From Treponema sp. (lineage in GTDB: Bacteria > Spirochaetota > Spirochaetia > Treponematales > Treponemataceae): a DNA stretch of 64,000 bases. Where the stretch lies: the NCBI GenBank assembly GCA_017934745.1, contig JAGBIY010000065.1, forward strand, positions 61,926 to 125,925, in the 5' to 3' direction. The position numbers were made by a program, and so were the translations under genes. Shown in pieces: positions 10,216 through 61,106 of the stretch; position 1 is the first letter of the stretch, and each line of letters starts with the position of its first letter. The notes under the pieces were generated by a model. It had not been told where the DNA came from. It was given only the letters and a program-made list of their open reading frames with translations, and ran no database searches.

Positions 10216-12087
10216 CTACTTGGTGGTGAATTTTATCGCTCCGTCCCAATTCTCTGGCGGATTGGCGATGAATTCCTCGCACCTCGACTTCATCAATTTC
10301 GCTGCCTTGTCGTCGGGGACTTCCAGCAAGCACTTCGAGAAATACTCCTTGGCCAGATTGAAGACGCCCTGCTTGTAGAGGGAGAAGCCCTTGTTGTAGC
10401 AGTCGCGGTAGACTGGCGAAAATTCGTCGATGTTCCTGTCGACCCCGTAAATCGGAACCGGAGTGGACTTTCCCTTCACGCGGACGTCGTCCAAATATCG
10501 AAAGACGAAATCATCGCACTTCAAATTCTCCTCGATGTCCCTCTTCACGGAATCGCTCACGAGAATCATGGAGCCGTATGTCTTCGTCAGCCCCTCAAGC
10601 CTCGAAGCCAGGTTCACGTTGTCGCCTATTACGGTGTAGCTCGTCCTGTCCTCGGAGCCGAGAGAGCCGACAGTCAAATCTCCGTAGTTGATTCCGATGC
10701 CGATGTCGAATTTCATGCCGGGCGGAAGAATCAAATCCCCAAGCGGCACGGACGGCAGGGCCTCCCTCATCTCGTAGGCGGCGGCGACGATTCTCCTCGT
10801 GTTGTCCTCGTAGGACACGGGCGCGCCGAACAGGGCCATTATCGCATCCCCGATGAATTTGTCGACCGTGCCGCCGTGCTTCTTTATGATGTTGCACATT
10901 ATTGTGAAATAGCGGTTCAGGAAGGCAATCATGACTTCAGGCTTGTTGCACTCCGAGATGTTCGTGAAGGAGCGGATGTCGCTGAACAGGACCGCCACAG
11001 GCCTCTTCTCTCCCAGCGCGGTCTTCTGCGACTCGGAATCCGAGTCGCTTATGCCGTTCACGTATGAGTCGATGACCTGTTCCGGGACGAAAAGGCTGAA
11101 CGCCTTCCTGATTCTCTTCTCGACGAAAATCTTCTGTTTTATCATCAGTACCTTCTCGAAAAGTATGCTGGCGTTCTCCGAGCAGAAATTGAAGAGGTCG
11201 GACTGGAGCGAAGAGAAATTTCCGCCGCGGAGGACGTTTATCACGCCGTATTCGCGGCCGGAGGAGTCGAGGAGCTTCGCGCTCAGATACGACGAGAGAG
11301 GAACGCCCGAAGTCTTGAAAGCGTCCATGTTGATTCCAGAATCCAGGAACTGGGGGACGAGCATGGAGAGGCTGGAATCCAAATCCAAATCCTCGAAATC
11401 GCTTTTGCAGACCTTCAGGAAATCCTCTTTCTCAGCGTCAGAAAGAAGAGAGGAGCACATGACATACGAATGAGGACCATTGTTCTCGACGAGGTTGAGG
11501 GAGACTGCGGGGGCGCACATGAACTCGGCGAGGAACGAAAGAAATTCCGTGGCGACGCTCTCCACCGACTCCATGTTGTTCATCATGGAAAAGAGCGACG
11601 TGAGAATCTTGTTCCTCAAACGAGCCTCTCCGTTCATCCCGGAACTTATCACGACGAGTTTCCTGTCGTCCATAGTTTTCCTGGCCTGAATCACATCCGC
11701 CTTGTCCATCCTCTCTCCGCTGTAGCTCGATATTTCGGAAAGCTCCTCCACGTTCAGGAGAAGAGTCTTGGGGTCGAGCCGCACGAACGTGTTTGCGCCG
11801 CACGAATAGGCGAATTCCTCATCGAACGAATTCTCCGTGTTCGAATACATTCCGATGGCGAGATTCTTGAAACAAGGAATGGAACGAATCAGCTTCACGA
11901 AATCGAAGCTGGAAGGCTCGGAGAAATCGGAATTCAGCAAAAGGATGTCGGGGAAGAAGTCGAACACGGCTTCTACAAGCTTTCCCAAATCGGATTCGAA
12001 TCGGAAGTTGTAGCCTTCGTCGAACGTCTTTGTGAAAATCTTCTGCACAGTGATGGAATTCTCTACGACCAGAATCTTTTTGTTCAT
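10216..12087 (-). CDS. Adenylate cyclase with degenerate receiver and GAF-like domain
   Basis: A 623-residue soluble signalling protein. Residues 1-115 fold-match a response-regulator receiver, but the acidic pair is Glu9-Asn10, the phospho-acceptor position is Asn52 and the usual Lys is Arg103, so phosphorylation is unlikely. Residues about 165-315 resemble a GAF sensor. Residues 360-560 are a class III nucleotide cyclase with both metal Asp residues (Asp370 in LFSDIRSF, Asp414 in FIGDAIMALFG). The Lys410 / Thr (YTVIGDNVN) specificity pair favours ATP over GTP. A TPR-like tail follows. Its start overlaps the cheA stop by 4 bases, making it the last gene and presumed output of the chemosensory operon. 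Confidence 0.88.
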   Translation of the reverse strand: MNKKILVVENSITVQKIFTKTFDEGYNFRFESDLGKLVEAVFDFFPDILLLNSDFSEPSSFDFVKLIRSIPCFKNLAIGMYSNTENSFDEEFAYSCGANTFVRLDPKTLLLNVEELSEISSYSGERMDKADVIQARKTMDDRKLVVISSGMNGEARLRNKILTSLFSMMNNMESVESVATEFLSFLAEFMCAPAVSLNLVENNGPHSYVMCSSLLSDAEKEDFLKVCKSDFEDLDLDSSLSMLVPQFLDSGINMDAFKTSGVPLSSYLSAKLLDSSGREYGVINVLRGGNFSSLQSDLFNFCSENASILFEKVLMIKQKIFVEKRIRKAFSLFVPEQVIDSYVNGISDSDSESQKTALGEKRPVAVLFSDIRSFTNISECNKPEVMIAFLNRYFTIMCNIIKKHGGTVDKFIGDAIMALFGAPVSYEDNTRRIVAAAYEMREALPSVPLGDLILPPGMKFDIGIGINYGDLTVGSLGSEDRTSYTVIGDNVNLASRLEGLTKTYGSMILVSDSVKRDIEENLKCDDFVFRYLDDVRVKGKSTPVPIYGVDRNIDEFSPVYRDCYNKGFSLYKQGVFNLAKEYFSKCLLEVPDDKAAKLMKSRCEEFIANPPENWDGAIKFTTK

Positions 12088-14186
12088 TTTTCAGCTCCTT
12101 CCAAAAGCGACTTCACAGAATCGAGCAGCTTTCCACGGTTGAAATTGCCCTTCGAGATGAACGCGCTCGCTCCGGCCTCTTCGAATTCCTTCATGGACGA
12201 ATCGTCGGACGACATTATGACTACCGGGACCGTCCTGTAGTTCTCCATTAGCCTGAGGTTCTCAAGAAGGACCAGCCCGTTCATGCGCGGCATGTCCTTG
12301 TCGCTCAGGACGAGGTCGTACTGCTTGGACTTCACGCGCTCGATTGCGTTGATGCCGTCCACAGCGCAGTCCACAGAGTATCCGCCGTTCGTGAGTATCG
12401 TCTTCTCAATCTGCCTCGTGGTGTCGGAATCGTCCACGACAAGAATCCTGTAGATGCGCTTCTTCGTGTTCGCCTCGTACTTTTTTATGTCGTAGCCGCG
12501 GAGCTTCTTGAATTTCGTGATGATTTCAGGAACGTAGAGAATCGGAACTATGTCGTAGTGCTCGTCGAAGACGATTCCCTGCAGAATCTTGAAATTCTTG
12601 AACGCCTGTGGAAGCGGCTTGACGACGAGAGACGCATACCTCTGCACGTTCTCCACGATGATTCCGACCTGCTGCTCCATGAATTCCGCTATGAGTATGG
12701 TGTCGGCGTCCGCGTTCTGCACAGACTTCTGCTCCTTGAAGAGCGACGAAAGCGAATAGACAGGAATCAGGCTGCTGTCCAGGCGGATGTAGTTCTGGTT
12801 CTGGAGGTTTATGTACTCGCTCTTCTTCCTGTAGATGATGTCGACGAGGTGCTGCGACGGAATGAGGAATTTGTCGTGGTTCGAGGTGACGAACAAGCCC
12901 TGCATGGTCGCGAGCGACAGCGGGAACCTCAATATGAACGAAGTGCCTTTTCCCCTCTCGGACTCTATCGAAATGCGCCCCTTTATCTTCTCGATGTTCG
13001 TCCACACCACGTCAAGCCCCACTCCCCTGCCGGAAAGGTCGGAGACCTTGTCCTTCGTGGAGAAGCCGGACATGAAGAGGAACTGGGTCAGCTCCTTGTC
13101 GCCCATGTTCCTTATCTCGTCGGTGCGCTCCGGGAATTTCTCCATCGCCTTGCTCCTGATTTTCTCGTAGTTCAAGCCCTTTCCGTCGTCCGCGACCGTA
13201 AGCTCCACGAATTTCGAGTCGGCCTTGCAGTGTATCGATATGACGCCCTGCTCGTCCTTGCCCGCGGCCGCCCTCTCTTCGGGAAGCTCGATTCCGTGGT
13301 CGAGGCAGTTGCGCACGAGGTGCACGAGGATGTCGGAAAGCTGTTCGAGGACGACCTTGTCGAGCAAGATGTCCGTCTCCGGGATATCGGCGCGCACGTT
13401 CTTGGAAAGCTGCATTGACTCAATCGCGATTGTGTTCTCGAACGAGCCGAGCACGCGGGAAATCGGAAGCATCCTAAGGTCGAAGACCTGCTGCTGGACA
13501 GAGAAAATCGTCGTCTCAAGAGAGCCGATGTCCGTCTCAAGCTGCTTCCGAAGCCTTGCGATTTCGTGGTTCCCGGTCTTCTCCTCGATTTCGCGCAGGG
13601 AGTCGAGCTGGTGCTTGAGGCGGAACTCGCGGATGAGCATGTCGTCGAAGGAGGAGATTATCTCGTTGATTTTCTTGAGCTTTATCCTTATGGACTGGAT
13701 GTCGGAAACGCTCTGTCCGTCGTCGTCCCCGTCGTCTTCAAAAATCAGGCCGCCCTGGCTCCTCTGGATTTCCTTCTCCACCTCGTCTATGTCGAAAAGC
13801 TCCCCCGCACCGATTTTGTCGCAGTAGGTGACGTAAAGAGAGACATCCGTCTCGTCCGTTCCTGACTTCTCTATGGAAGAAAGGCAGCTTGCGATTTTGT
13901 CCGAAACCAAGAAGACGAGCCTGACGAGCCTGTCCGAGATTTTCACCTGCCCGTCCTTCACCCCCTTGAAGATGTCCTCGACAGCATTCGCGAGACGCTC
14001 GATTGAAGAGTAGCCGAGCATTCTTGAGTTTCCCTTGACCGTATGGAGATTCCTGAGAAGCTCGGAGAGAATTCCGGCGTCGTCCTTGTCCTTCTTCAAC
14101 GCCAGGACCGACTTCCGCACGCTCTCCAAAAGCTCCTCCGACTCCGAAAGAAAGCTTTCCGTTATGTCTTCTGATATTCGTGGCAT
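12084..14186 (-). CDS. cheA: Hybrid chemotaxis-type histidine kinase CheA with C-terminal receiver
   Basis: A 700-residue kinase. An Hpt domain with phospho-accepting His48 (LHTVKGNSRML) is followed by a dimerisation region and an HATPase domain (HLVRNCLDHGIE, ADDGKGLNY and GRGVGLDVV boxes). A CheW-like coupling domain (about 440-560) and a C-terminal receiver with an intact VVDDSD pair and Asp629 (LSDKDMPRMNG) complete it. A CheY-binding P2 domain is not evident. CheA-REC hybrids occur in non-motility pathways such as Myxococcus FrzE. The gene lies 15 bases after cheR and overlaps the cyclase gene. There is no separate CheY in the cluster. Confidence 0.93.
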   Translation of the reverse strand: MPRISEDITESFLSESEELLESVRKSVLALKKDKDDAGILSELLRNLHTVKGNSRMLGYSSIERLANAVEDIFKGVKDGQVKISDRLVRLVFLVSDKIASCLSSIEKSGTDETDVSLYVTYCDKIGAGELFDIDEVEKEIQRSQGGLIFEDDGDDDGQSVSDIQSIRIKLKKINEIISSFDDMLIREFRLKHQLDSLREIEEKTGNHEIARLRKQLETDIGSLETTIFSVQQQVFDLRMLPISRVLGSFENTIAIESMQLSKNVRADIPETDILLDKVVLEQLSDILVHLVRNCLDHGIELPEERAAAGKDEQGVISIHCKADSKFVELTVADDGKGLNYEKIRSKAMEKFPERTDEIRNMGDKELTQFLFMSGFSTKDKVSDLSGRGVGLDVVWTNIEKIKGRISIESERGKGTSFILRFPLSLATMQGLFVTSNHDKFLIPSQHLVDIIYRKKSEYINLQNQNYIRLDSSLIPVYSLSSLFKEQKSVQNADADTILIAEFMEQQVGIIVENVQRYASLVVKPLPQAFKNFKILQGIVFDEHYDIVPILYVPEIITKFKKLRGYDIKKYEANTKKRIYRILVVDDSDTTRQIEKTILTNGGYSVDCAVDGINAIERVKSKQYDLVLSDKDMPRMNGLVLLENLRLMENYRTVPVVIMSSDDSSMKEFEEAGASAFISKGNFNRGKLLDSVKSLLEGAEK

Positions 14187-14201
14187 TTTTTTCCCTTAAA
14201 A

Positions 14202-15014
14202 TCAATTTGTTTTCATGAAATAGAACACATTGCCGTCCGCTATCTTGGTGAGCGAGGCCGGTGTCATCTCGGAATCTATCTGGGCGATTTCGTTCATGGA
14301 TACGAAAATCAACCCTCCGTCGGCAAGGTACTTTTCGGCGAGGGCTTTGAGTATTTCCGCGCGGGTCTTCCGTGAAAAATAGATGAACACGTTCCTGACG
14401 AAGATGACGTTCTGCTTCTCGATTTTCACATCATCGCCACCGATACGCGTGAGATTTATCTTCTTCGTCGAGACCGCGCTTTTCACGGAGTCGTCGAAGA
14501 CAATCTCCCCTTGCGGATTCGTGTACCTTTGAAGGAGATGCTTGAATTTCTCCCCATCACCCGCGCGGACTGTAGAAGGCTTGAACACTCCATTCCGGCA
14601 TTTCTCCAGCACGGCGGTGTTTATGTCGCTCGCCAATATCAACGGCTTCACCCTGCAGTGCGAAGCCAAAAGCGCGAGAGAATAGGCTTCCTCGCCTTCG
14701 GAGCAGGCCGCGCTCCAGATTCTCATCGGCTCCGCGCCGTGCCTGTTTATCCATTCAGGAAAAATCTTGGAGCGCAAAAGCTCGAACTGCTTCTCCTCCC
14801 TGAAGAAATACGTCTCGTTCACTGTCGAACCGTTCACAAGCTCGTCGAACTCTTCCTTCTCGGTCTGGATTTTCATGAAATAGTTCCCGAAACCGAGCGT
14901 GGCGATTTTCTTCTCCACGAATTTGCTTATGCCGAACTTATGGCTCTCCCGTGGAATTATCCCGATTTTCTCGGTTATGAACGCGATTATCTTCTCAAAT
15001 TCGATTTCATTCAT
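14202..15014 (-). CDS. cheR: Chemoreceptor methyltransferase CheR
   Basis: A 270-residue SAM-dependent enzyme that methylates receptor glutamates. It has the CheR N-terminal helical domain, then the family signature NETYFFREEKQFELL, the SAM site WSAACSEGEEAYSLA and the VIFVRNVFIYF block. The length is normal. The start overlaps the cheB stop by 4 bases. Together with cheB it shows that the receptors of this operon undergo adaptation. Confidence 0.95.
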   Translation of the reverse strand: MNEIEFEKIIAFITEKIGIIPRESHKFGISKFVEKKIATLGFGNYFMKIQTEKEEFDELVNGSTVNETYFFREEKQFELLRSKIFPEWINRHGAEPMRIWSAACSEGEEAYSLALLASHCRVKPLILASDINTAVLEKCRNGVFKPSTVRAGDGEKFKHLLQRYTNPQGEIVFDDSVKSAVSTKKINLTRIGGDDVKIEKQNVIFVRNVFIYFSRKTRAEILKALAEKYLADGGLIFVSMNEIAQIDSEMTPASLTKIADGNVFYFMKTN

Positions 15015-16018
15015 TTGACAAGCTCCCGTATGCGCGCAGGAATCTCGCTTCTTGGAAGGACTTCCCTCGCTCCGCCGACTTCAATGGCAGCCGCGGGCAT
15101 GCCAAAAACAACGCATGTTGACTTGTCCTCGGCGATTGTGAAACCGCCGGAATCCACCACCATCTTGCAGCCGTCCGCTCCGTCCCGCCCCATTCCAGTG
15201 AGGAGGACGGCCAGACACGCGTTCCTGTAGTGCTTTGCCGCACTCGCGAACATCTTGTTGACGGCAGGTCGCAAAAAACGTTCGGGAGGCTCGTCGGAAA
15301 TCTTCAGGACAGGATTTCCGTTCGGCTTTACGTAATCCACGAGGAGGTGCCTGTCGGCCGGAGCCATGTACACGGTTCCGGGCTTGCCCTCCTCCCCGTT
15401 CGACGCGAGTTTCACATGGACATTGGGGCAGGTGTCGTCGAGCCACTTCGACATCTTTTTGTCCGCGCCGACCTCGATGTGCTGGGAATATATTATCGGA
15501 AGCGGAAAATCTGGACCAAGGCCGGAGAGAACGGAAGCCACGGCCGTCGGACCGCCGGTCGAGGCTCCTATGCAGACTATCCTGAACCCGGAGAACGACG
15601 GATCGGACTCGACATCTATCTTTTCCGTTTTCTTCAGCGGCTTCAGCGCGCTCCGGCAGCCGCTCCTGAGTTTTTCAGACAGTTTCGAGAAAAAATCCGA
15701 ATCAAAATCCTTCACCTTGGGCTTCCTCATGAAAATCGCGCCGATATCGAATGCGGCGGAAGCGTCCTTTTGGTTCTCGGACAGCAGCACGACAGGAATG
15801 TCCAAATCCCTGACAAACACGCCGGCGGTCTCTATGCCGTTCATCTCCGGCATATCGGAGTCGAGTATAGCGATGTCGACACCCGAATTCCTGGCGAAAT
15901 CGAACGCCTTGCGCCCTGTAGAGACAGCGCACACTATCTCGAAATCTGGACTTTTCTCAAGATTCTGCGAAAGAATCGTCCTCACAATCGCTGAATCATC
16001 GGCAATCAGCACCCTCAC
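15011..16018 (-). CDS. cheB: Receptor methylesterase / response regulator CheB
   Basis: A 335-residue protein in two parts. The N-terminal receiver has ADDS and the phospho-Asp in LDSDMPEMNG. The C-terminal methylesterase has the catalytic triad motifs GASTGGP (Ser), SQHIEVG (His) and GMGRDGADG (Asp). It removes methyl groups or deamidates receptors when phosphorylated by CheA. The start is the GTG at 16018, preceded by GGAGG and overlapping the upstream stop as GTGA. A longer frame reaching 16117 would read back through the preceding gene and is rejected. Confidence 0.93.
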   Translation of the reverse strand: MRVLIADDSAIVRTILSQNLEKSPDFEIVCAVSTGRKAFDFARNSGVDIAILDSDMPEMNGIETAGVFVRDLDIPVVLLSENQKDASAAFDIGAIFMRKPKVKDFDSDFFSKLSEKLRSGCRSALKPLKKTEKIDVESDPSFSGFRIVCIGASTGGPTAVASVLSGLGPDFPLPIIYSQHIEVGADKKMSKWLDDTCPNVHVKLASNGEEGKPGTVYMAPADRHLLVDYVKPNGNPVLKISDEPPERFLRPAVNKMFASAAKHYRNACLAVLLTGMGRDGADGCKMVVDSGGFTIAEDKSTCVVFGMPAAAIEVGGAREVLPRSEIPARIRELVK

Positions 16019-16503
16019 ATCAAACCTCCGGAAAAGAACCTGCGCAAAAGGGAATCTGGAGAAATGAGCACCTGCTTTCTTCCGTCGGAGGTGAAGCGGA
16101 CGGCGCAGATTCCGCACTCCAAAAGCCTGTTCCTTATTCCGCTGGGGAAAACGTGGAGTTCGGAAAGCTCCAACTCCCGGCTGCTCAAATTTCCAGTCAT
16201 CGAAAGAGCCAAGTTTCCAGTGGCCGGAAAAGCGGTCTCCGTCGCGTCCTCAATCTGCTTTCCCACGTCGCGGGCGAAATCTTTTGAATTCATCACTATC
16301 ACAGCGTTCGCGTTTCCGTCCGCGCTGCATCCGAATTCCTTCTCAAGCTGGCCACCGATGAAAAGATGAGGAAGAGTCTCCCTGTTGAAGACAATGTTCA
16401 TGGAATTTTTCGGGACGCTGAGGTATATGCCGGAGACGATGTACTCGCTCGGAATGAGGAAATCCATGTTGTCGTAAAAAATGCAGGTGAAATGCTTCTT
16501 CAT
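16015..16503 (-). CDS. Unassigned chemosensory-operon protein, possibly a divergent CheW
   Basis: A 162-residue soluble protein encoded between cheW and cheB, with its start overlapping the cheW stop (TGATG) and its stop overlapping the cheB start. I cannot assign a family from motifs. The size, position and an early pattern (a bound hydrophobic strand, a middle SVPKNS turn and a hydrophobic FIGGQLEKEFG strand) faintly resemble a CheW fold. It lacks the usual GVINLRG-type signature. It has no signal peptide and no membrane segment. A coupling or receptor-modulating role is inference from context only. Confidence 0.6.
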   Translation of the reverse strand: MKKHFTCIFYDNMDFLIPSEYIVSGIYLSVPKNSMNIVFNRETLPHLFIGGQLEKEFGCSADGNANAVIVMNSKDFARDVGKQIEDATETAFPATGNLALSMTGNLSSRELELSELHVFPSGIRNRLLECGICAVRFTSDGRKQVLISPDSLLRRFFSGGLM

Positions 16504-17006
16504 CAGCTTCCCAAATCCTTTCTCAACAAAATCTCGAACGAGTCTGGGTTGAGCACCGGAATTTCCTCGTGGTTGTAGTCGATTGTCCCAAGAACGACGC
16601 GCTCATCGTCCGTGTTCGGAATCAGGTGCAAATCATCCCCCTCGGTCTCGCAGAAAAACAGTATGTCGGATATGTGCAGCGAAAGCTTGTCGTCGCTGCG
16701 CTTCAAGACAAGGAAAAGCGACGAATCCACGACATCACCGCATTCCTCGTCGATGAACGAGACGGGGTTCAGCACAGTAACAGGCTCGCCCCTCCTGTTC
16801 ATCACGCCCTCGACATACGAAGGCAAAAACGGAAGACGGTAGATTTTCACGTCGTGTATTATCTCGTCCACCGCGCCGGACTTTATGGCGTACTTCCTGT
16901 CAAGAATCGAAAAGACGAGCCACGTTATCCTCTCGCGGACCTCCTCCACGACTTTCTTCTCGACGAGCCCCTCGCGCTCGATTTCCTTTACAACGCTCTC
17001 ATTCAT
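16503..17006 (-). CDS. cheW: Chemotaxis coupling protein CheW
   Basis: A 167-residue CheW-fold adaptor linking receptors to the kinase. Visible features are the opening strand WLVFSILDRKYAI, the middle FLPSYVEGVMNRRGEPVTVL signature (equivalent to the VxGVxNLRG motif) and a second beta subdomain. A 25-residue charged N-terminal extension precedes the fold. The start (ATG at 17006) has a GGAG site seven bases upstream and overlaps the receptor gene by 8 bases, indicating translational coupling. Confidence 0.9.
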   Translation of the reverse strand: MNESVVKEIEREGLVEKKVVEEVRERITWLVFSILDRKYAIKSGAVDEIIHDVKIYRLPFLPSYVEGVMNRRGEPVTVLNPVSFIDEECGDVVDSSLFLVLKRSDDKLSLHISDILFFCETEGDDLHLIPNTDDERVVLGTIDYNHEEIPVLNPDSFEILLRKDLGS

Positions 17007-18780
17007 TCGGCTTCTCCACGTTCGCGGAATTCTTCTGCGCGCTCAATTCCTGAGCGATTTCCTGGACGACCTGCGCGGCCGAAGAGATGTTCTCCGTCGA
17101 CTGGGTGAAGTTCTCGACACCAGTCGCAATCTGCTTGAGAGTGGCGAGCATCTGCTCAGAGGCGACCGCCTGCTGCTGTATTATCGAGGTGATGTCCTCC
17201 GCGCTCGTGGCCGTTATCTCGGAGGCGTTCTTTATGCTCTCGAACTTCAGCTCAAGCTCCTTCGCGCTCTCGCATCCCTCGTTGATTTTCTCGGTGCCGC
17301 TCTCGCTCGCCAGAATCAAGCTGTCCGAACTCTGCTGAATCTCGTTTATCCTTGACTTGATTTCCTTCGTTCCGTCGATGATTCCGTCGGCCAACCGCCT
17401 GATTTCGGTCGCGACGATGTGGAAGTTCTTTCCGGCCTCGCCCGCGCTCGAAGCCTCAAGCTCGGCGTTGAAAGCGATGATTTTCGCCTGGTCGGCCACG
17501 GAGTTGATGAGCGTCACGATGTCCCAGATGTTCTCGATTTTCTCTCCGAGTGCCTTTATTCCCTTTATCGTGTTCTGGTTCGCATCGAAAATCTCGTGGA
17601 GCTTCTTCACGTTCTGTTCGAGCGAGGACACGCCCGCTATAACATCGGACGAAGTTTTGTGGGCGACCGCCGACACGTCCTTTATCTTCACGGATATGCT
17701 CTCCGAAAGCGTGTTCGTGTCCTCCATCGTCGCGACCATCTCCTTGACGGACGCGCTCTGGTCCTGGCTCGTGGCGGCGTTCTCCTTCGTCGCCGTAGCG
17801 AGGTTGAGCGTCTCGGCGTGGAGCTTGTCGCCAAGCACCCTCTCCGCCTTCTTCATTTTGTCCATCGAAACCATGTTCAGGACGACGCAAACGATTATGA
17901 GGAGAATCGTCACAAATATCGTAATCGAAAACCATTTGTTGAAATCGCCCGTGAAATCCGAGACAGGGCCTTCAGCGACAATGAACCAAGGGTAGTTGAT
18001 GAACCTCTTGACCGCGTAGTAGTTGTCGTCCTGAATCAGGAATTTCTCGTCGCCGTCGAAGTACTCGGTCTCGTCGAACCGCTTGGACACTTTTGAATGG
18101 TCGAAATACTTCTCGGAAAGCACATAATCCTTGTTGAAATTGGAGATGTACGTTCCATCCGTGTTGATGGTCTCGCTTATGGAGTTGTCCGAAATCAGAA
18201 CGCCGCTCGTCGCGTCGGCAAAGTAGTCGAGGGCGACGACGAAGCCAGATACCGCGTAGACGCTGCCGTCGTCTTCGTATACGGCCTCGGTCAAAAACAT
18301 CACATTGTCGGCGAAGTGCTCGTCGTACCTGGCGAGCCCGCCCGCAAGCCCTTCCGCATCGACCGCGGTCTGGTACCAGTCCATAGAGCTGATGTCTGTG
18401 CCGTAGTCAAGTTCCCATCCATCGCTCGAAACGAAGAAACCTCCGTCCGACGAATCCTCGACGGTCGCGAAGAAGAACGTGGTGTCCGCGTTCACGCTCG
18501 CCGCGTCCATGAGGCACCGCTCCACCGCGCTTCTGCTCCTCGTGGAAAGGGCGACAGTGTTCACCATCTCAAGGCTCTTCACCTTCCCTGAAAGGTAAGA
18601 ATCGCACGACAGGTTCACCGAGTCGACATACGAACGCGCCCTCTCGATTACGTTCTTCCTGATGAGTCCTTCCGTGACCTTGTTGAACGAAACGCTCACG
18701 AAAAGCCCCACGACGACCATGGGCACGAGCACCATCAAAAACTGCTTCGGCGACATCGAAATAAACTTCTTGATTTTCAT
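16999..18780 (-). CDS. Methyl-accepting receptor with dCache-like sensor (receptor 1)
   Basis: A 593-residue transmembrane receptor. One helix lies near residues 16-36, a roughly 260-residue periplasmic dCache-like sensor follows, a second helix comes near 305-328, and a cytoplasmic coiled coil completes it. A HAMP domain is not evident. The hairpin tip reads DQAKIIAFNAELEASSAGE instead of the common [18 protein letters not shown]. In the sensor the Arg/Trp residues of the universal amino-acid motif are not conserved (SSMDWYQTAV). The ATG at 18780 is used because the upstream in-frame codon is TTG inside the ribosome-binding site. It is a close paralogue of the receptor that ends at 18799. 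Confidence 0.9.
   Translation of the reverse strand: MKIKKFISMSPKQFLMVLVPMVVVGLFVSVSFNKVTEGLIRKNVIERARSYVDSVNLSCDSYLSGKVKSLEMVNTVALSTRSRSAVERCLMDAASVNADTTFFFATVEDSSDGGFFVSSDGWELDYGTDISSMDWYQTAVDAEGLAGGLARYDEHFADNVMFLTEAVYEDDGSVYAVSGFVVALDYFADATSGVLISDNSISETINTDGTYISNFNKDYVLSEKYFDHSKVSKRFDETEYFDGDEKFLIQDDNYYAVKRFINYPWFIVAEGPVSDFTGDFNKWFSITIFVTILLIIVCVVLNMVSMDKMKKAERVLGDKLHAETLNLATATKENAATSQDQSASVKEMVATMEDTNTLSESISVKIKDVSAVAHKTSSDVIAGVSSLEQNVKKLHEIFDANQNTIKGIKALGEKIENIWDIVTLINSVADQAKIIAFNAELEASSAGEAGKNFHIVATEIRRLADGIIDGTKEIKSRINEIQQSSDSLILASESGTEKINEGCESAKELELKFESIKNASEITATSAEDITSIIQQQAVASEQMLATLKQIATGVENFTQSTENISSAAQVVQEIAQELSAQKNSANVEKPNE
17401..17511 (-). repeat. Hairpin-tip block nearly identical to 19165-19275 (copy in receptor 1)
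   Basis: This 111-bp stretch matches 19165-19275 at 110 of 111 bases, counted by eye; the single difference is the C in GTTCTTT versus GTTTTTT. It encodes the receptor hairpin tip that contacts CheA/CheW. Flanking cytoplasmic regions of the two genes differ at many third codon positions. Confidence 0.85.
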
Positions 18781-18798
18781 TTCCAAAAACTCCAACTT

Positions 18799-20544
18799 TT
18801 ATTTGTTCAATTCCTCTGAAACTTTGTGCAGATTATCGGCAATCACAGATATGCTCTCGGTCGCCTGGAAAGAATTCTCCACTCCGGCGGAAATCTGCTT
18901 GACCGTCATCAAAATCTGGTTCGAGGAGACGACCTGCTGCTGCACAATCGAAGTTATCTCCCCCGCGCTGGTGGCTGTCATCTCGGAAGACGTCTTTATG
19001 CTGTTGAATTTCTCCTCAAGCTCCCTCGCGCTTCCGTACCCCTCCTTGATTTTCTCCGTGCCGTTCTCCGAAGCCAATATGAGGCTGTCGGAACTCTGCT
19101 GGATTTCCGAGATTCTTTCCTTTATCTCCTTCGTGCCGTCGATGATTCCGTCCGAAAGGCGGCGGATTTCGGTCGCGACGATGTGGAAGTTTTTTCCGGC
19201 CTCGCCCGCGCTCGAAGCCTCAAGCTCGGCGTTGAAAGCGATGATTTTCGCCTGGTCGGCCACGGAGTTGATGAGGGAGACGATTTCCCAGATGTTCTCG
19301 ATTTTCTCCCCAAGCGCCTTGATTCCGTTTATCGTGTTCTGGTTCGCGTCGAAAATCGCGTGGAGCTGCTCGACGTTCTTCGACAAAGCGGAAACTCCCT
19401 CAAGGACATCGGCGGACGTCTTGTTCGCTATCGACGCGACATCGGTTATCTTCGTCGATATGCTGCCCGAAAGTTCGTTGTTGTCCTCCATCGTCGAGAC
19501 AATCTCCTTTATGGCGGCGCTTTGGTCTTGGCTCGTAGCGGCGTTCTCCTTCGCTGCGACAGCCAGGGTTCTCGTCTCGTCAGCGACTTTCTCGCCGAGG
19601 AGCAGGTTCTTTCTCCTCACAGACTTAAGGAAAAGACTGATGAAGAAGCTTCCGACGACAGCGAAGAAAACCACCGACACGACAATCGAGAAAGCCATCT
19701 TTCTGAAGAACGAGTTGAAATCGGAGATTGGCCCCTCCACGACAGCGAACCACGGGGAATTCCCGATTTTTTTGACGGCGTAGAACCGTCCCCCCTCCGT
19801 GAACGCCTTCTGCACGCCGTCGAAGTACTCGTCGCGGGAACAGAATTCGGCGATTCTCGAATTGTCGAAGTAATTGGAGGAAAATATCTTCGACTCGTCC
19901 TTGTCGGAAAGGTAGGTTCCGTCGTTAGTCACGATGCTGACTGTGGAATTCTCTGAAAGGTTTATGTCCCTGACCAAATCGACAAGCCCGTTCAAGGTGA
20001 TGTCGAGACCGGCCACTCCGAGCACGACGCCGGAATCCGAGACCGACTCGGAAAACGTGACGCAGACGCTGCCTGTCCTGTCGTCGAGATACGGGTCGCA
20101 ATACGTGAACTGCCCGGAATTGGCGACCGCGTCCGTGAACCAGGGCCTCGTTCGCGGCTCCCAGTTGTTTTCGGGCACCCAATACGGATGTATCAAGAAG
20201 AATCCGCCCTTAGAGAATCTGGAAATGTCGGTGGCATAGTAGAAAGCGGAATCGTCAGACAAATCCTCGCAAAGGCCGTCCAAGACCTTCTGCAGGACAT
20301 TCTTGTCATGGTTCGCGCGCACAATCGAAGACCAGTTGGCGAGCTTCTGCATACTCGGCTCCAATATGTCAAGGACTTCGGAGCTAAGCTCGTTCACGGC
20401 GGCCGAAGCCTTGTCGGAAAGTGATAGGTGTATGATTTTGTTTGTGACGAATACAAAAGAAAAGCAAGCGAAAATGGCAATCACAGCCATAGGCAAAAAA
20501 CTTACAATGAATTCTTTTGGATAAAAATGAAATATTTTTTTCAT
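18799..20544 (-). CDS. Methyl-accepting receptor with dCache amino-acid-type sensor (receptor 2)
   Basis: A 581-residue receptor with the same layout as its downstream paralogue: helix at about 12-34, dCache sensor, helix at about 280-300, and a cytoplasmic domain with the DQAKIIAFNAELEASSAGE tip and no obvious HAMP. The sensor keeps the R131-T-R133-P-W135-F136 block, YCDPY (148-152) and Asp181. These match most of the dCache amino-acid-binding motif, so an amino-acid ligand is plausible. The start at 20544 has no ribosome-binding site but a TACAAT six bases upstream. It is first in the operon; 18 bases separate it from the next receptor. Confidence 0.88.
   Translation of the reverse strand: MKKIFHFYPKEFIVSFLPMAVIAIFACFSFVFVTNKIIHLSLSDKASAAVNELSSEVLDILEPSMQKLANWSSIVRANHDKNVLQKVLDGLCEDLSDDSAFYYATDISRFSKGGFFLIHPYWVPENNWEPRTRPWFTDAVANSGQFTYCDPYLDDRTGSVCVTFSESVSDSGVVLGVAGLDITLNGLVDLVRDINLSENSTVSIVTNDGTYLSDKDESKIFSSNYFDNSRIAEFCSRDEYFDGVQKAFTEGGRFYAVKKIGNSPWFAVVEGPISDFNSFFRKMAFSIVVSVVFFAVVGSFFISLFLKSVRRKNLLLGEKVADETRTLAVAAKENAATSQDQSAAIKEIVSTMEDNNELSGSISTKITDVASIANKTSADVLEGVSALSKNVEQLHAIFDANQNTINGIKALGEKIENIWEIVSLINSVADQAKIIAFNAELEASSAGEAGKNFHIVATEIRRLSDGIIDGTKEIKERISEIQQSSDSLILASENGTEKIKEGYGSARELEEKFNSIKTSSEMTATSAGEITSIVQQQVVSSNQILMTVKQISAGVENSFQATESISVIADNLHKVSEELNK
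19165..19275 (-). repeat. Hairpin-tip block nearly identical to 17401-17511 (copy in receptor 2)
   Basis: Partner of the 111-bp block at 17401-17511 in the paralogous receptor, with one base different. Such silent-site identity suggests recent duplication or gene conversion limited to the signalling tip. Confidence 0.85.
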
Positions 20545-26425: not shown

Positions 26426-28189
26426 ATGAAAAAACAAACTTCCATAACAAAGATAATAAACATCATAATAGCAGTCGCGATAGTCGCATACTCATCGATA
26501 ATCTTCTACACAGTGCAATCGCGGCTTAATTCCGGGCTGGAAGAATACTTCACGGAAGACACAAAGACACTTTCAAAAGTCATAACGGACGAAATGGACA
26601 CGGCGCTTTCAGAGACATCGAAAATAGCGGACTTCCTGAAAGACACGGTGGAATTCGAATATAGTTCCACGGGCTTGATTTCAGCGGATTTCGCCGACAC
26701 GATATGCGGCAGCGTCTCAAAAACCACGAATATCGACACCGTTGTCATAGTCGATGCGGCGGGAAGACAGGTTTCGTCGAAGAAATTCGGGGTCGCGTTC
26801 AAATCCGACCTGGTGGAGAAAGCTTTGGCTGGAGAGAGAACCGAGAATTTCGTAAAGCCAGACAGCGACATCTACGCCATAGTCGCGCTTCCCATGAGGG
26901 ATTCGACTTCGGCTGTAATCGGAGCCGCGATACTTAAACAGAAGATATCCACATATGAATTCGTCAAGAAAGTGAGCGAATACACGCAGTCCCAGGTGAC
27001 AATCTTCGACGGAACAACGAGACAGGCGACGAGCATCGACGGAATGCAGGGGACGACAATCGCGCAGGCGAACCTCGTGGAAAACGCCCTCGCGGGAGAG
27101 TGTACGACGCTCATAACAGAAATAAACGGCGTGAAGACAATCGCGCACTACTTTCCGATGACGGACAGGTCAGGCGAAATCCTCACAACGCTCTACATGG
27201 GAAAGCCGCTGCACATCGTCAATTCAGTCGCCTCAAGAATCTTCAAGCCGCTCATAGCCGTAATCATAGTCAGCACAGTAATCATGCTGGCAATCGTCAT
27301 GGGACTCTTCTACACAAAAATCGTGCGCCCGCTCGCGTCTGTCGGAAAGGCGATTGAAAGCCTGTCTTCGGGGAACGCGGATTTGACGTACAGAATAGAA
27401 GAGAAAGGCAACGACGAATTCTCGGCGCTGGCGAAGAACGTGAACAACTTCATCGACCTTCTTCAGGGAATCGTCGTGCGCATAAAGGAGAACGCAATAC
27501 AGGTGCTCACGAGCAGCGAGCAGATAAGCGAGTCCAGCCAGGCGATTTCCACGGGAGCCTCGGAGCAGGCGGCCTCCACGGAAGAGATGAGCGCGACAAT
27601 GGAGCAGATGGCCTCGAACATAAACCAGACGGCCATGAACGCGGACAGGACGGGAAAGATAGCCGACAAGACGGAGCTGGAAAGCGAATCCGGGGAGGAA
27701 GCCGTGCGGGAATCCGTCGAAGCCGTGAAGGAAATCGCGGAAAAAATCGGAGTCATCGGAGCGATAGCGAAGCAGACGAACATCCTTGCGCTCAATGCGG
27801 CCATAGAGGCGGCCCGCGCGGGAGAAGCGGGAAAGGGATTCGCCGTGGTCGCCTCGGAAGTCAGGAAACTGGCGGAACGCTCTCAGATTTCAGCGGGCGA
27901 GATAGTAGACCTCTCGGAAAGGACTCTCGACGCAGCCGAGAACGCAGGCGAAAAAATCGCGAGCATAATCCCGGAAATCAGGCAGACGACATCTCTCATC
28001 GACGAAATCTCAGTCGCATGCAAGGAGCAGAACAACGGAGCGCAGCAGGTCAGCCAGGCGATAATCCAGCTCGACGCGGTTGTCCAGCAGAATGCCAGCT
28101 CCGCGGAGGAGCTTGCGGCGATGAGCGAGGAGCTTTCGGCGAACGCCAGGGAACTGACGAAAATCATCAGCATCTTCAAGACGGAGTAG
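26426..28189 (+). CDS. Methyl-accepting chemotaxis protein (canonical, Cache-HAMP)
   Basis: A 587-residue receptor. It has a helix at about residues 9-31, a compact periplasmic Cache sensor (to about 280), a second helix (about 284-306), a HAMP linker with the [19 protein letters not shown] segment and a signalling domain. The hairpin tip is the common form [20 protein letters not shown], unlike the two receptors of the 10-20 kb cluster, so it probably joins the motility array. The ATG at 26426 has AGGAAAA upstream; the open frame extends further 5' without support. It stands alone between its own promoter and terminator. The ligand is unknown. Confidence 0.92.
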
Positions 28190-59177: not shown

Positions 59178-61106
59178 ATGAAAAATTCAAGAACGAAAAA
59201 ACGGCGGGCGTTGTTCCCAATCGGAATGAAGCTCGTGCTGATAATCAGCTTCATAGTCGTAGTGTCTCTAGGAGCGATAACAGTCCTCGTAAGCTACTTC
59301 ACGAGGGAGAACGACAGGCTCAAGGCCGAGAGCAACAACTTCACGGTGAACACGAGGTCGGCCGGAATAGCGCAGAGCTTCTTCAACCAGACGCAGTCGA
59401 ACGTGTACCTTCTCATGGACATGGTCTCCACAATCGGAACGAACGGCGCGCTGTCCAAGCAGTCGTCGGCGTACTTCTTCGAGCGGTACCCTGAAATCGG
59501 AGCGATAGTCGAATTCACGAGAAGGCAGCGGAGCATAGACGAAGCCGCCACGGACGACGAGAGGACGATGAACTTCCTGAACACGAGGTTCATGCAGAAG
59601 CACGAGCTTACGGAGAACAAAATCGAGAGCTTCCTCAAATCCGAGAGCGACACAATAGAGAAGGCTTTCCAGGGGGTCGAGAGCGCGGTCAACGCGACAA
59701 CGTACTTCGACACGACCACGATGGGTCTTTTCTTCGCGGCCACGGAAGGCACGGACAGGAAGGCGATAGTCGTCATAACGTCGGCGGAATCGCTGTCGGA
59801 CACGTTCGGAACGTCAGGGACGAACAACTCCTACATCGTGAACGCGGACGGAGACATCATCGTGCACCCGGACTTCGAGAAGGTGCGCCTCGGCACGAAC
59901 GTCTCGGACTCCCCGATTGTCAAGCAGATGAGGGAGAACCCGGACTCTGGCAGGCAGATTTTCTTCACCGACACGGACGGAATCGAATATTTCGGGGCGT
60001 ACCAGAAGCTGCAGTTCGCGGACGTGGGCGTAATCACGACAGTGAAGGCATCGATAATCTACGAGAGCGTCGAATCCACGACAAGGCGCAACATCTACCT
60101 CACGCTGTCGGTCTTCTTCCTCGCGATAATATTCATCGCCACATACTCCAAGCTCATCAGCACGAGGATAAAGAGGCTCACGAGAGCGTCCTCCGAAATA
60201 GAGCGCGGAAACTTCAACGTGCGGATAAAGAACACTTCGAACGACGAGATAACCGTGCTGACGAACAGCTTCATGAAGATGGGGCGAGGACTCGCCGAGA
60301 GGAAGAACCTGGAGGACACGTTCGGCAAATTCGTCAACAGGGAGCTTGCGAAGAAGGCGTTGAGCGGAGGCCTCAAACTCGGTGGAGAGGAGAAGAACGT
60401 GACGGTATTCTTCTCGGACATCAGAAGCTTCACGGCGATTTCGGAGAAGCTCACCCCGGACGAGGTCGTCGGATTCCTGAACGTCTACATGACGAAGATG
60501 GTCGAGTGCGTGCAGAAGACGGGCGGAACGGTCGACAAGTTCATCGGGGACGCGCTCATGGGCGTGTGGGGCGCGCCGTTGACTTCTGGCAGCGTGGCTA
60601 GGGACGCGTTCAACTGCGTGCGCGCGGCTCTTATGATGCGGGCCGCCCTCATGGAATTCAACAAGGACAGGGGCGGAGACAAGAAACCCATCATCAAAAT
60701 CGGATGCGGAATCAACACCGGTCCCGTAATCGCCGGGCAAATCGGCTCCGAGCAGAAGATGGAGTACACGGTCATCGGAGACGCGGTGAACCTCGCTTCC
60801 AGGACGGAGGCGTTGAACAAGCCGTTCGGGACGGACATCCTCATAACGGAGAACACCTACAAGCTCATAAAGGACTACGTTCTCGTGGAGGAGATGCCGG
60901 GCGTGATGGTCAAGGGAAAGTCGGAACCGATAAAGATGTTCGCGGTGATAAACATCCCAAAAGCCACGGGAACTCCGGGAGCGGGAGCGGCGGGACCTTC
61001 TTCGCTCGACGAGGTGAGGTCGATGCTCGGAATCCCGAAGCCCGACCTTTCCTGTGTCGACCCGAACAAGCACGAAGAGAAGTACAAGATAGGCGGAGAC
61101 AAATAA
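59178..61106 (+). CDS. Transmembrane Cache-HAMP adenylate cyclase
   Basis: A 642-residue membrane enzyme. One helix (about 17-40) is followed by a periplasmic dCache-like sensor, a second helix (about 302-324), a HAMP linker (about 325-380) and a class III cyclase. Metal residues lie in VFFSDIRSF and KFIGDALMG, and the Lys (VDKFIGD) plus Thr (YTVIGDAVN) pair predicts ATP as substrate. A Gly/Pro-rich tail ends the protein. Such cyclases are common in spirochaetes. The upstream GAAGG is close to the ATG. It precedes the FecR gene by eight bases. Confidence 0.92.
   Translation: MKNSRTKKRRALFPIGMKLVLIISFIVVVSLGAITVLVSYFTRENDRLKAESNNFTVNTRSAGIAQSFFNQTQSNVYLLMDMVSTIGTNGALSKQSSAYFFERYPEIGAIVEFTRRQRSIDEAATDDERTMNFLNTRFMQKHELTENKIESFLKSESDTIEKAFQGVESAVNATTYFDTTTMGLFFAATEGTDRKAIVVITSAESLSDTFGTSGTNNSYIVNADGDIIVHPDFEKVRLGTNVSDSPIVKQMRENPDSGRQIFFTDTDGIEYFGAYQKLQFADVGVITTVKASIIYESVESTTRRNIYLTLSVFFLAIIFIATYSKLISTRIKRLTRASSEIERGNFNVRIKNTSNDEITVLTNSFMKMGRGLAERKNLEDTFGKFVNRELAKKALSGGLKLGGEEKNVTVFFSDIRSFTAISEKLTPDEVVGFLNVYMTKMVECVQKTGGTVDKFIGDALMGVWGAPLTSGSVARDAFNCVRAALMMRAALMEFNKDRGGDKKPIIKIGCGINTGPVIAGQIGSEQKMEYTVIGDAVNLASRTEALNKPFGTDILITENTYKLIKDYVLVEEMPGVMVKGKSEPIKMFAVINIPKATGTPGAGAAGPSSLDEVRSMLGIPKPDLSCVDPNKHEEKYKIGGDK

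Follow-up and report, generated by a model that had tools for sequence, protein, structure and literature searches.

A conserved chemosensory operon of Treponema ending in a class III adenylate cyclase with a predicted pseudo-receiver, and a sister operon whose CheA lacks the kinase

We analysed a 64,000-nucleotide stretch of DNA from Treponema sp. (assembly GCA_017934745.1, contig JAGBIY010000065.1, positions 61,926 to 125,925; hereafter the window, in whose coordinates features are given). Its minus strand encodes, from 20544 to 10216, eight co-directional genes, mcp-mcp-cheW-W2-cheB-cheR-cheA(REC)-cyclase, where REC stands for receiver. The cyclase at the end of this operon carries a receiver-like domain devoid of the residues used in phosphorylation, and in a recurrent sister operon the CheA protein itself is missing both its ATPase domain and its phospho-histidine. 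We give a probability of about 0.55 to a reading in which the receptors would control the synthesis of cyclic AMP (cAMP) through a complex of CheA and the cyclase, as part of a self-contained, non-flagellar array, and in which the CheA of the sister operon would act as a CheV-like scaffold. Operon spacings were computed from the nucleotide sequence; domains come from Pfam, and all domain calls are sequence-based. L, G and C numbers are our handles for loci, genomes and contigs.

Results

Three types of one operon

Loci of the window's own type (type A) that gave long matches are arranged as mcp-cheW-W2-cheB-cheR-cheA-cyclase. Type B loci have the same order without W2, and type C loci share the core of type A with the receptors downstream; some of the loci compared are cut by contig ends. 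The cyclase protein found matches in all 59 genomes searched, many of them to other cyclases; such are the lower-scoring matches L033-L037, restricted to the catalytic half and with no CheA match beside them in the sequence examined, which were rejected. In all 41 annotated loci of the genus and the order, cheA adjoins the cyclase. Such a recurrence of gene order in many genomes is not expected by chance. A previous sequence-only reading of this DNA had proposed a complete chemosensory operon, set apart from motility and ending in a cyclase, and had made the gene order one of its tests; the order is conserved, the cyclase retains its catalytic residues, and this part of the proposal is borne out. 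Among the ten named relatives of the window cyclase, nine are titled Treponema and one Spirochaetales, and four titles name the stomach of sheep, roe deer or goat.

A CheA without its kinase

The CheA of the window (12084..14186, minus strand) is built as Hpt, P3, P4 (ATPase), P5 (CheW-like) and receiver. Pfam recognises Hpt, HATPase_c, CheW and Response_reg, P3 is seen by alignment only (best E of H-kinase_dim 0.1 among 11 aligned CheAs), and P2 has no Pfam match on the protein. With an Hpt bearing His48 (codon 14043..14045, minus strand, by alignment; in L049 and L069 the position could not be read), an HATPase_c and a CheW domain, it qualifies as a CheA histidine kinase. When it is used as a tblastn query, many relatives match up to about residue 237 and resume at 407-429, with short gaps between; what type B CheAs lack is residues 238-427 of the window protein by alignment, namely P4 and the end of P3 (12906..13475, minus strand).

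P4 is absent from all 33 distinct type B CheAs that could be read (5 of 132 aligned positions filled), and in the same 33 the Hpt His is replaced, by Ser (25), Arg (4), Cys (2), Lys (1) or Glu (1). HATPase_c and the phospho-His being both missing, type B proteins fall outside the CheA histidine kinases. An assembly artefact is ruled out by the number of distinct loci. The receiver at the other end of the protein has the opposite fate. Its phospho-Asp (about Asp629 in the window, codon 12300..12302, minus strand, by alignment) is kept in every readable row, and Asp and Lys are found together in 11/11 type A and 33/33 type B rows. The latter include L055, whose CheA is cut by a contig end and which was left out of the kinase counts and retained for the cyclase and the CheA receiver; L123, the only one of the 33 CheAs analysed that is cut before the receiver Asp, is unreadable there. 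In L115, L128, L132, L133 and L138 (the last represented by L043) the receiver motifs are complete, so the stop flagged inside the match is probably the end of the gene. The type B receiver (for instance in L041, 8485-10005) has lost about nine residues around helix 4, between the Ser of strand 4 and the Lys, and its output face may be remodelled as a result.

Of 201 genomes of the genus, 113 match a type B P5-receiver query and 41 hold a type B gene as judged by score and frame length. Sequence-level analysis covered 32 of these 41, which together with L047 makes the 33 loci; for G131, G102, G141, G214, G216, G195, G182, G106 and G091 the assignment comes from score and frame length alone, and G101 and G005 are possible further cases, uncounted. 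Some genomes hold types A and B together, and in two of them a single contig carries both, about 14 kb from each other (L139/L140, G059:C9; L141/L142, G217:C4), an arrangement that may stem from tandem duplication. In a tree of the cyclases, type A forms one clade (SH-aLRT 99).

By its composition, CheW plus a phosphorylatable receiver and no kinase, the type B CheA answers to the definition of CheV; we call it CheV-like only, because of its extra N-terminal segments and its kinship with CheA. CheW and Response_reg matches (E up to 1) are found in all 11 aligned CheAs, eight of them type B, and Pfam on the full L041 protein gives CheW and the receiver above the cut-off and Hpt below it. Type B genes may for this reason be labelled CheV in annotation, which is perhaps why they have been overlooked.

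A pseudo-receiver on the cyclase

The cyclase (10216..12087, minus strand) appears to consist of a receiver-like domain, a linker or GAF-like region, a class III adenylate cyclase domain (Guanylate_cyc, E 1.5e-24) and a TPR-like tail, the TPR matches staying below the Pfam cut-off. Receiver and GAF domains had both been attributed to it by the sequence-only reading. Pfam finds neither in the window protein, and among 11 aligned cyclases it detects a receiver in two (best E 0.021) and a GAF in one (E 0.0047); the receiver is upheld by a profile of 11 cyclases, which matches solved receivers over positions 1-116 (E 1.1e-7). In the window its acid pair is Glu-Asn, its phospho-Asp is Asn52 (codon 11932..11934, minus strand, by sequence and alignment) and its Lys is absent. 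It is thus not a phosphorylatable response regulator, and we regard it as a predicted pseudo-receiver. Since all of these positions are altered, direct phosphotransfer from CheA to the cyclase, which the gene order would at first sight suggest, is unlikely in the window lineage.

We removed 19 duplicate loci, recognised by identity over the last 200 CheA residues, and compared this site across the 62 distinct loci that remained. It is Asn in 10/11 type A loci (Thr in L049) and in 34/34 type B loci. Type C varies at the site (Tyr 5, Asp 4, Ser 3, Asn 1), and the four rows from other families have Asp. The column is 98% identical over the 45 type A and B rows versus 60% for the median receiver column, so the Asn seems to have been retained.

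The catalytic half has kept its residues: Asp, Asp, Lys, Thr/Ser, Asn and Arg are found in 41/41 cyclase rows tabled (one row being a duplicate). These residues place the protein among class III adenylate cyclases, and its best solved matches are mostly adenylate cyclases (2w01, CyaB 3r5g). Given Lys410 and the Thr/Ser, the window cyclase is predicted to make cAMP from ATP. A second class III cyclase domain lies in the window at 60390-60941 (plus strand), in an open frame of 651 amino acids (G000:C46:122315-122866), and the domain has nine matches across the host genome.

The probable ancestral state

The N-terminal part of L073, a cyclase from another family of the order, was used as a query against 242 genomes of the order and gave 49 matches in 45 genomes. 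We analysed the best 30 of these 49, which are all from other families and of which three were previously known loci (L185=L073, L189=L072, L206=L078). The acid pair, the phospho-Asp and the Lys are present on the cyclase receiver in 30/30, and a CheA match adjoins the cyclase on the same strand in 29/30, the sequence around L201 holding none. With canonical receivers standing beside cheA in other families, the ancestral system was probably a normal CheA-to-cyclase phosphorelay.

CheB, CheR and adaptation

CheB (15011..16018, minus strand; Pfam CheB_methylest and receiver) has in the window a receiver with its Asp kept and a methylesterase with the Ser-His-Asp residues, and CheR (14202..15014, minus strand; Pfam CheR, E 1e-37) is the methyltransferase. 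The active-site residues of CheB are kept in all rows, and the motifs of both enzymes are kept; the operon of L059 is without cheB and cheR. The receiver of CheB is less constant. Its phospho-Asp is lost in five of the nine type A loci readable for CheB (L052-L054, and by eye L139 and L142), and among 11 distinct readable type B loci the receiver is missing in three and the phospho-Asp kept in eight. The loss in a type A subclade leaves the receiver of CheA as the last canonical acceptor in the operon, and no other single observation indicates so well, in our view, where the switch may be located. A methylation-tuned response, as previously suggested, finds weak support: the motifs of CheB and CheR speak for it, but the window receptors have no perfect match to the methylation consensus, only matches with one mismatch.

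The other genes of the operon

MCP1 (18799..20544, minus strand) is a dCache receptor (dCache_1 9.6e-17, MCPsignal 2.2e-23) and MCP2 (16999..18780, minus strand) a receptor whose dCache_1 match is below the cut-off (5.5e-6; MCPsignal 1.4e-22). The two share a private signalling tip, ADQAKIIAFNAELEASSAGEAGKNF. They are followed by the coupling protein CheW (16503..17006, minus strand; Pfam CheW, 7.5e-12) and by W2 (16015..16503, minus strand). A gap of 18 bases separates MCP1 and MCP2, and then come overlaps of 8 (MCP2/CheW), 1 (CheW/W2), 4 (W2/CheB, with a GTG start of CheB at 16018) and 4 (CheB/CheR), a gap of 15 (CheR/CheA) and an overlap of 4 (CheA/cyclase). Every overlap and gap given earlier for these eight same-direction genes was reproduced from the sequence. 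The last overlap suggests coupled translation of cheA and the cyclase. Upstream of the operon lies dapB, and downstream of it an oxaloacetate-decarboxylase gamma gene.

W2, of 162 amino acids, has no match in Pfam or NCBIfam. It had been described as CheW-like, a kinship that we rejected: the hhalign probability against CheW is 0.2% for an alignment of 6 sequences and 0.6% for one of 19, and the CheW-strand-like ends seen by eye were not counted as evidence. Against solved structures, its profile found a sole match, an unrelated enzyme (E 0.44). The family measures about 130-200 amino acids from stop to stop. It is present in 8/8 readable type A loci, a short alignable open reading frame occupies its place in 10/10 type C loci, and it is missing between cheW and cheB in 11 distinct and six further type B loci. 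Outside the genus, L072 has W2 and L073 a similar frame by eye, while L077, from another family, leaves no room for it (62 nucleotides) though its CheA is complete. We would guess that, within the genus, W2 serves the kinase.

The rest of the host genome

The host genome (3.58 Mb in 73 contigs) encodes flagellins. Elsewhere in it lies a motility-type cluster, whose CheA has P2 but lacks a receiver and which also encodes a CheW-CheR fusion, CheX and a CheY-like receiver protein. The reported absence of cheY, cheX and cheC is thus true of the operon, but cheX and cheY are present in the genome. The CheW-CheR fusion recalls CheWS of T. denticola (PMC10653840, in part). A third cluster (L180, 4838-12554, G000:C41) reads STAS-cheA-cheR-cheB-cheY-mcp-cheW, with STAS and CheA called by Pfam and the others by eye. 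The cyclic-nucleotide-binding (cNMP-binding) family has eight matches in the genome, some proteins holding two.

Receptors are numerous, with 49 matches to PF00015. The 30 others that we analysed in this genome (L149-L178) have a different tip, of the motility kind or close to it, and this difference from the operon tips argues for an insulated operon array. One of the 30, L154, lies in the window itself (27656-28135, plus strand) and has the motility-kind tip. Outside the window, the orphan receptor L179 (1804-3564, G000:C37) has a tip that is nearly ADQAKIIAFNAELEASSAGEAGKNF, and could possibly be a third input of the array.

Discussion

How the receptors might reach the cyclase

The reading that we favour would work as follows. 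In type A, binding of a ligand to a receptor would lead to autophosphorylation of CheA, and the phosphate would pass to the receiver of CheA itself and to CheB. The pseudo-receiver would be a docking domain in the contact between CheA and the cyclase, and cyclase activity would be set by the state of the CheA receiver, which is the likely phospho-switch, or by the conformation of the array. In type B the same complex would form around a CheA reduced to a scaffold (dead Hpt, P3, P5 and receiver), driven by array conformation, by phosphate brought onto the CheA receiver from another source, or by both. In either type, cAMP would then act on the cNMP-binding proteins of the genome.

Several observations weigh against this proposal. 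Interaction, cAMP and phosphorylation are all deduced from sequence. The window CheA is an intact kinase, and its signal could be carried by a response regulator elsewhere that has escaped notice. The Asn now present at the phospho-site may be a functionless inheritance. Our sample of other families is biased, having been drawn with a canonical receiver-cyclase as query and consisting of the best 30 of 49 matches, and L077, which came from a separate search, has a Glu-Asn acid pair, though its Asp and Lys are kept. All ten named relatives of the cyclase are labelled as metagenome-assembled genomes or uncultured. Type B monophyly is weakly supported (SH-aLRT 53) in a tree that comes with long-branch warnings, so that one loss of the kinase, though the most economical history, is not proven. 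The ratios of nonsynonymous to synonymous substitution (dN/dS) used below come from pairs of which several are near saturation at synonymous sites, and one pair of the eight gave none.

The conventional alternative, in which CheA phosphorylates the cyclase receiver directly and thereby switches the enzyme, would agree with what is seen in other families, with a canonical receiver in all 30 of the best loci and cheA adjoining in 29. It is very improbable for the operon of the window, which has Asn for the phospho-Asp, Glu-Asn for the acid pair and no Lys; Asn occupies the site in 44/45 type A and B rows. We also consider it improbable, if slightly less so, that the signalling link is simply fading, type B being a relic and the cyclase constitutive or regulated through its GAF-like region. 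A succession of losses can indeed be listed (the phospho-site of the cyclase, the receiver of CheB, the kinase, the phospho-His and, in the case of L059, the operon's cheB and cheR). However, dN/dS by simple count lies between 0.03 and 0.24 in P1, P3, P5 and both receivers wherever it could be computed, in seven of eight type B pairs; type B is found in 41/201 genomes by score and length, only L123 among the 33 CheAs analysed is cut before its receiver Asp, the cyclase keeps its catalytic residues in all rows, and receptor tips are conserved, the private tip being kept by 17/17 type B operon receptors analysed. Type B does not have the appearance of a degenerate system.

A different question is where phosphate would come from in type B. 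Another CheA, from the motility or the third cluster or from a co-resident type A or C operon, might phosphorylate the CheA receiver and CheB, replacing the lost kinase in the manner of a split CheA. We hold this to be rather unlikely, and it has points on both sides. At least one P4 match (E 1e-12 or better) exists in 39/41 type B genomes; the CheA receiver keeps its Asp and Lys wherever it is readable, and CheB its Asp in eight of 11 loci; and a precedent is offered by CheA3 and CheA4 of Rhodobacter sphaeroides (PMC6829392, in part). On the other side stand the difference between the operon tips and those of 30 other receptors in the window genome, which speaks against mixed arrays, the lack of a phospho-His in 33/33 type B CheAs, unlike CheA3, and the absence of the CheB receiver in three of the 11 loci. 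Among 18 type B genomes that are at least 90% complete with low contamination, eight have exactly one P4 match, in a frame of 803-854 amino acids, and its neighbourhood is the motility cluster in both genomes inspected (G004 by Pfam, G185 by eye). No split P4 partner gene was found for type B, the P4 matches lying in frames of 682-857 amino acids or in five shorter ones (438-572 amino acids), which were left unexamined. In one-P4 genomes, then, the type B array either receives phosphate, from the motility kinase or a different source, or works without it. The boldest possibility, which we hold tentatively and at well under even odds, is kinase-free chemoreceptor signalling, in which the array of receptors, CheW and CheA would control the cyclase by direct conformational coupling, the relay having been lost stepwise, on the cyclase receiver and then in the ATPase and His of CheA, so that CheA would remain as a mere scaffold.

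Chemosensory arrays are regarded as having one defining output, the kinase activity of CheA. In type B the kinase has seemingly been removed while the receptors, the coupling proteins, the output enzyme and, in most loci, the adaptation enzymes were retained. Type B thus separates the conformation of an array from phosphorylation, and makes allosteric signalling by arrays directly testable. The series of intact, half-lost and lost states further shows how a phosphorelay might become a switch based on protein contact.

Comparison with known systems

Chemosensory control of cAMP, in Pil-Chp, and cyclases as chemosensory outputs, in Wsp, are already known. The Wsp system is a chemosensory operon whose output, WspR, is a diguanylate cyclase with a phosphorylatable receiver, and it shares with ours a nucleotide-cyclase response regulator as output. 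It differs in that WspR is a cyclic di-GMP enzyme with a receiver that can be phosphorylated, and our operon ends in a class III cyclase with a predicted pseudo-receiver; the GGDEF domain that defines Wsp is replaced here by Guanylate_cyc.

Among the matches listed in the open-licence literature, there is no description of this operon, nor of a CheA that lacks its kinase and adjoins a cyclase. A survey of 13,673 CheA sequences reports an ATPase domain in every homologue, and receiver-bearing CheAs are common in it, about a third (PMC10782961, in part). Its collection began from CheA genes recognised with the MiST database, a starting point by which type B may have been missed.

CheV, a fusion of CheW and a receiver (PMC12691637, in part), resembles the type B CheA, which in L041 in full is CheW-like plus receiver by Pfam, but the latter retains a segment like P3 and an N-terminus that resembles Hpt without its His, is akin to CheA and adjoins the cyclase. 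CheA3 of Rhodobacter sphaeroides likewise lacks a working kinase domain (PMC6829392 and PMC10782961, both in part). CheA3, however, keeps its phospho-His and is phosphorylated by CheA4, whereas the type B CheA is His-less and has no P4 partner found beside it. Within spirochaetes, CheA1 of Borrelia burgdorferi is a CheA dispensable for chemotaxis in vitro; it is termed a chemosensory-like histidine kinase (PMC10703414, in part), with no mention there of a cyclase partner.

A close comparison may also be made with the Pil-Chp system of Pseudomonas aeruginosa (ChpA, FimL, CyaB), a chemosensory system whose CheA is a hybrid with a receiver and which acts on cAMP by way of the cyclase CyaB (PMC3019171, in part). 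Our operon does not belong to it, having one Hpt match on CheA and no pilus gene among its genes; ChpA has eight potential Hpt domains, and its output also goes through PilG/PilH and pili (same source). In our operon the cyclase gene comes last and its product has a (pseudo-)receiver of its own, and the dead Hpt of type B is on CheA itself. FimL, which is homologous to the N-terminus of ChpA and has Gln at the would-be phospho-sites, promotes cAMP synthesis dependent on CyaB (PMC3019171, in part), and would be a striking functional parallel to the mechanism that we propose.

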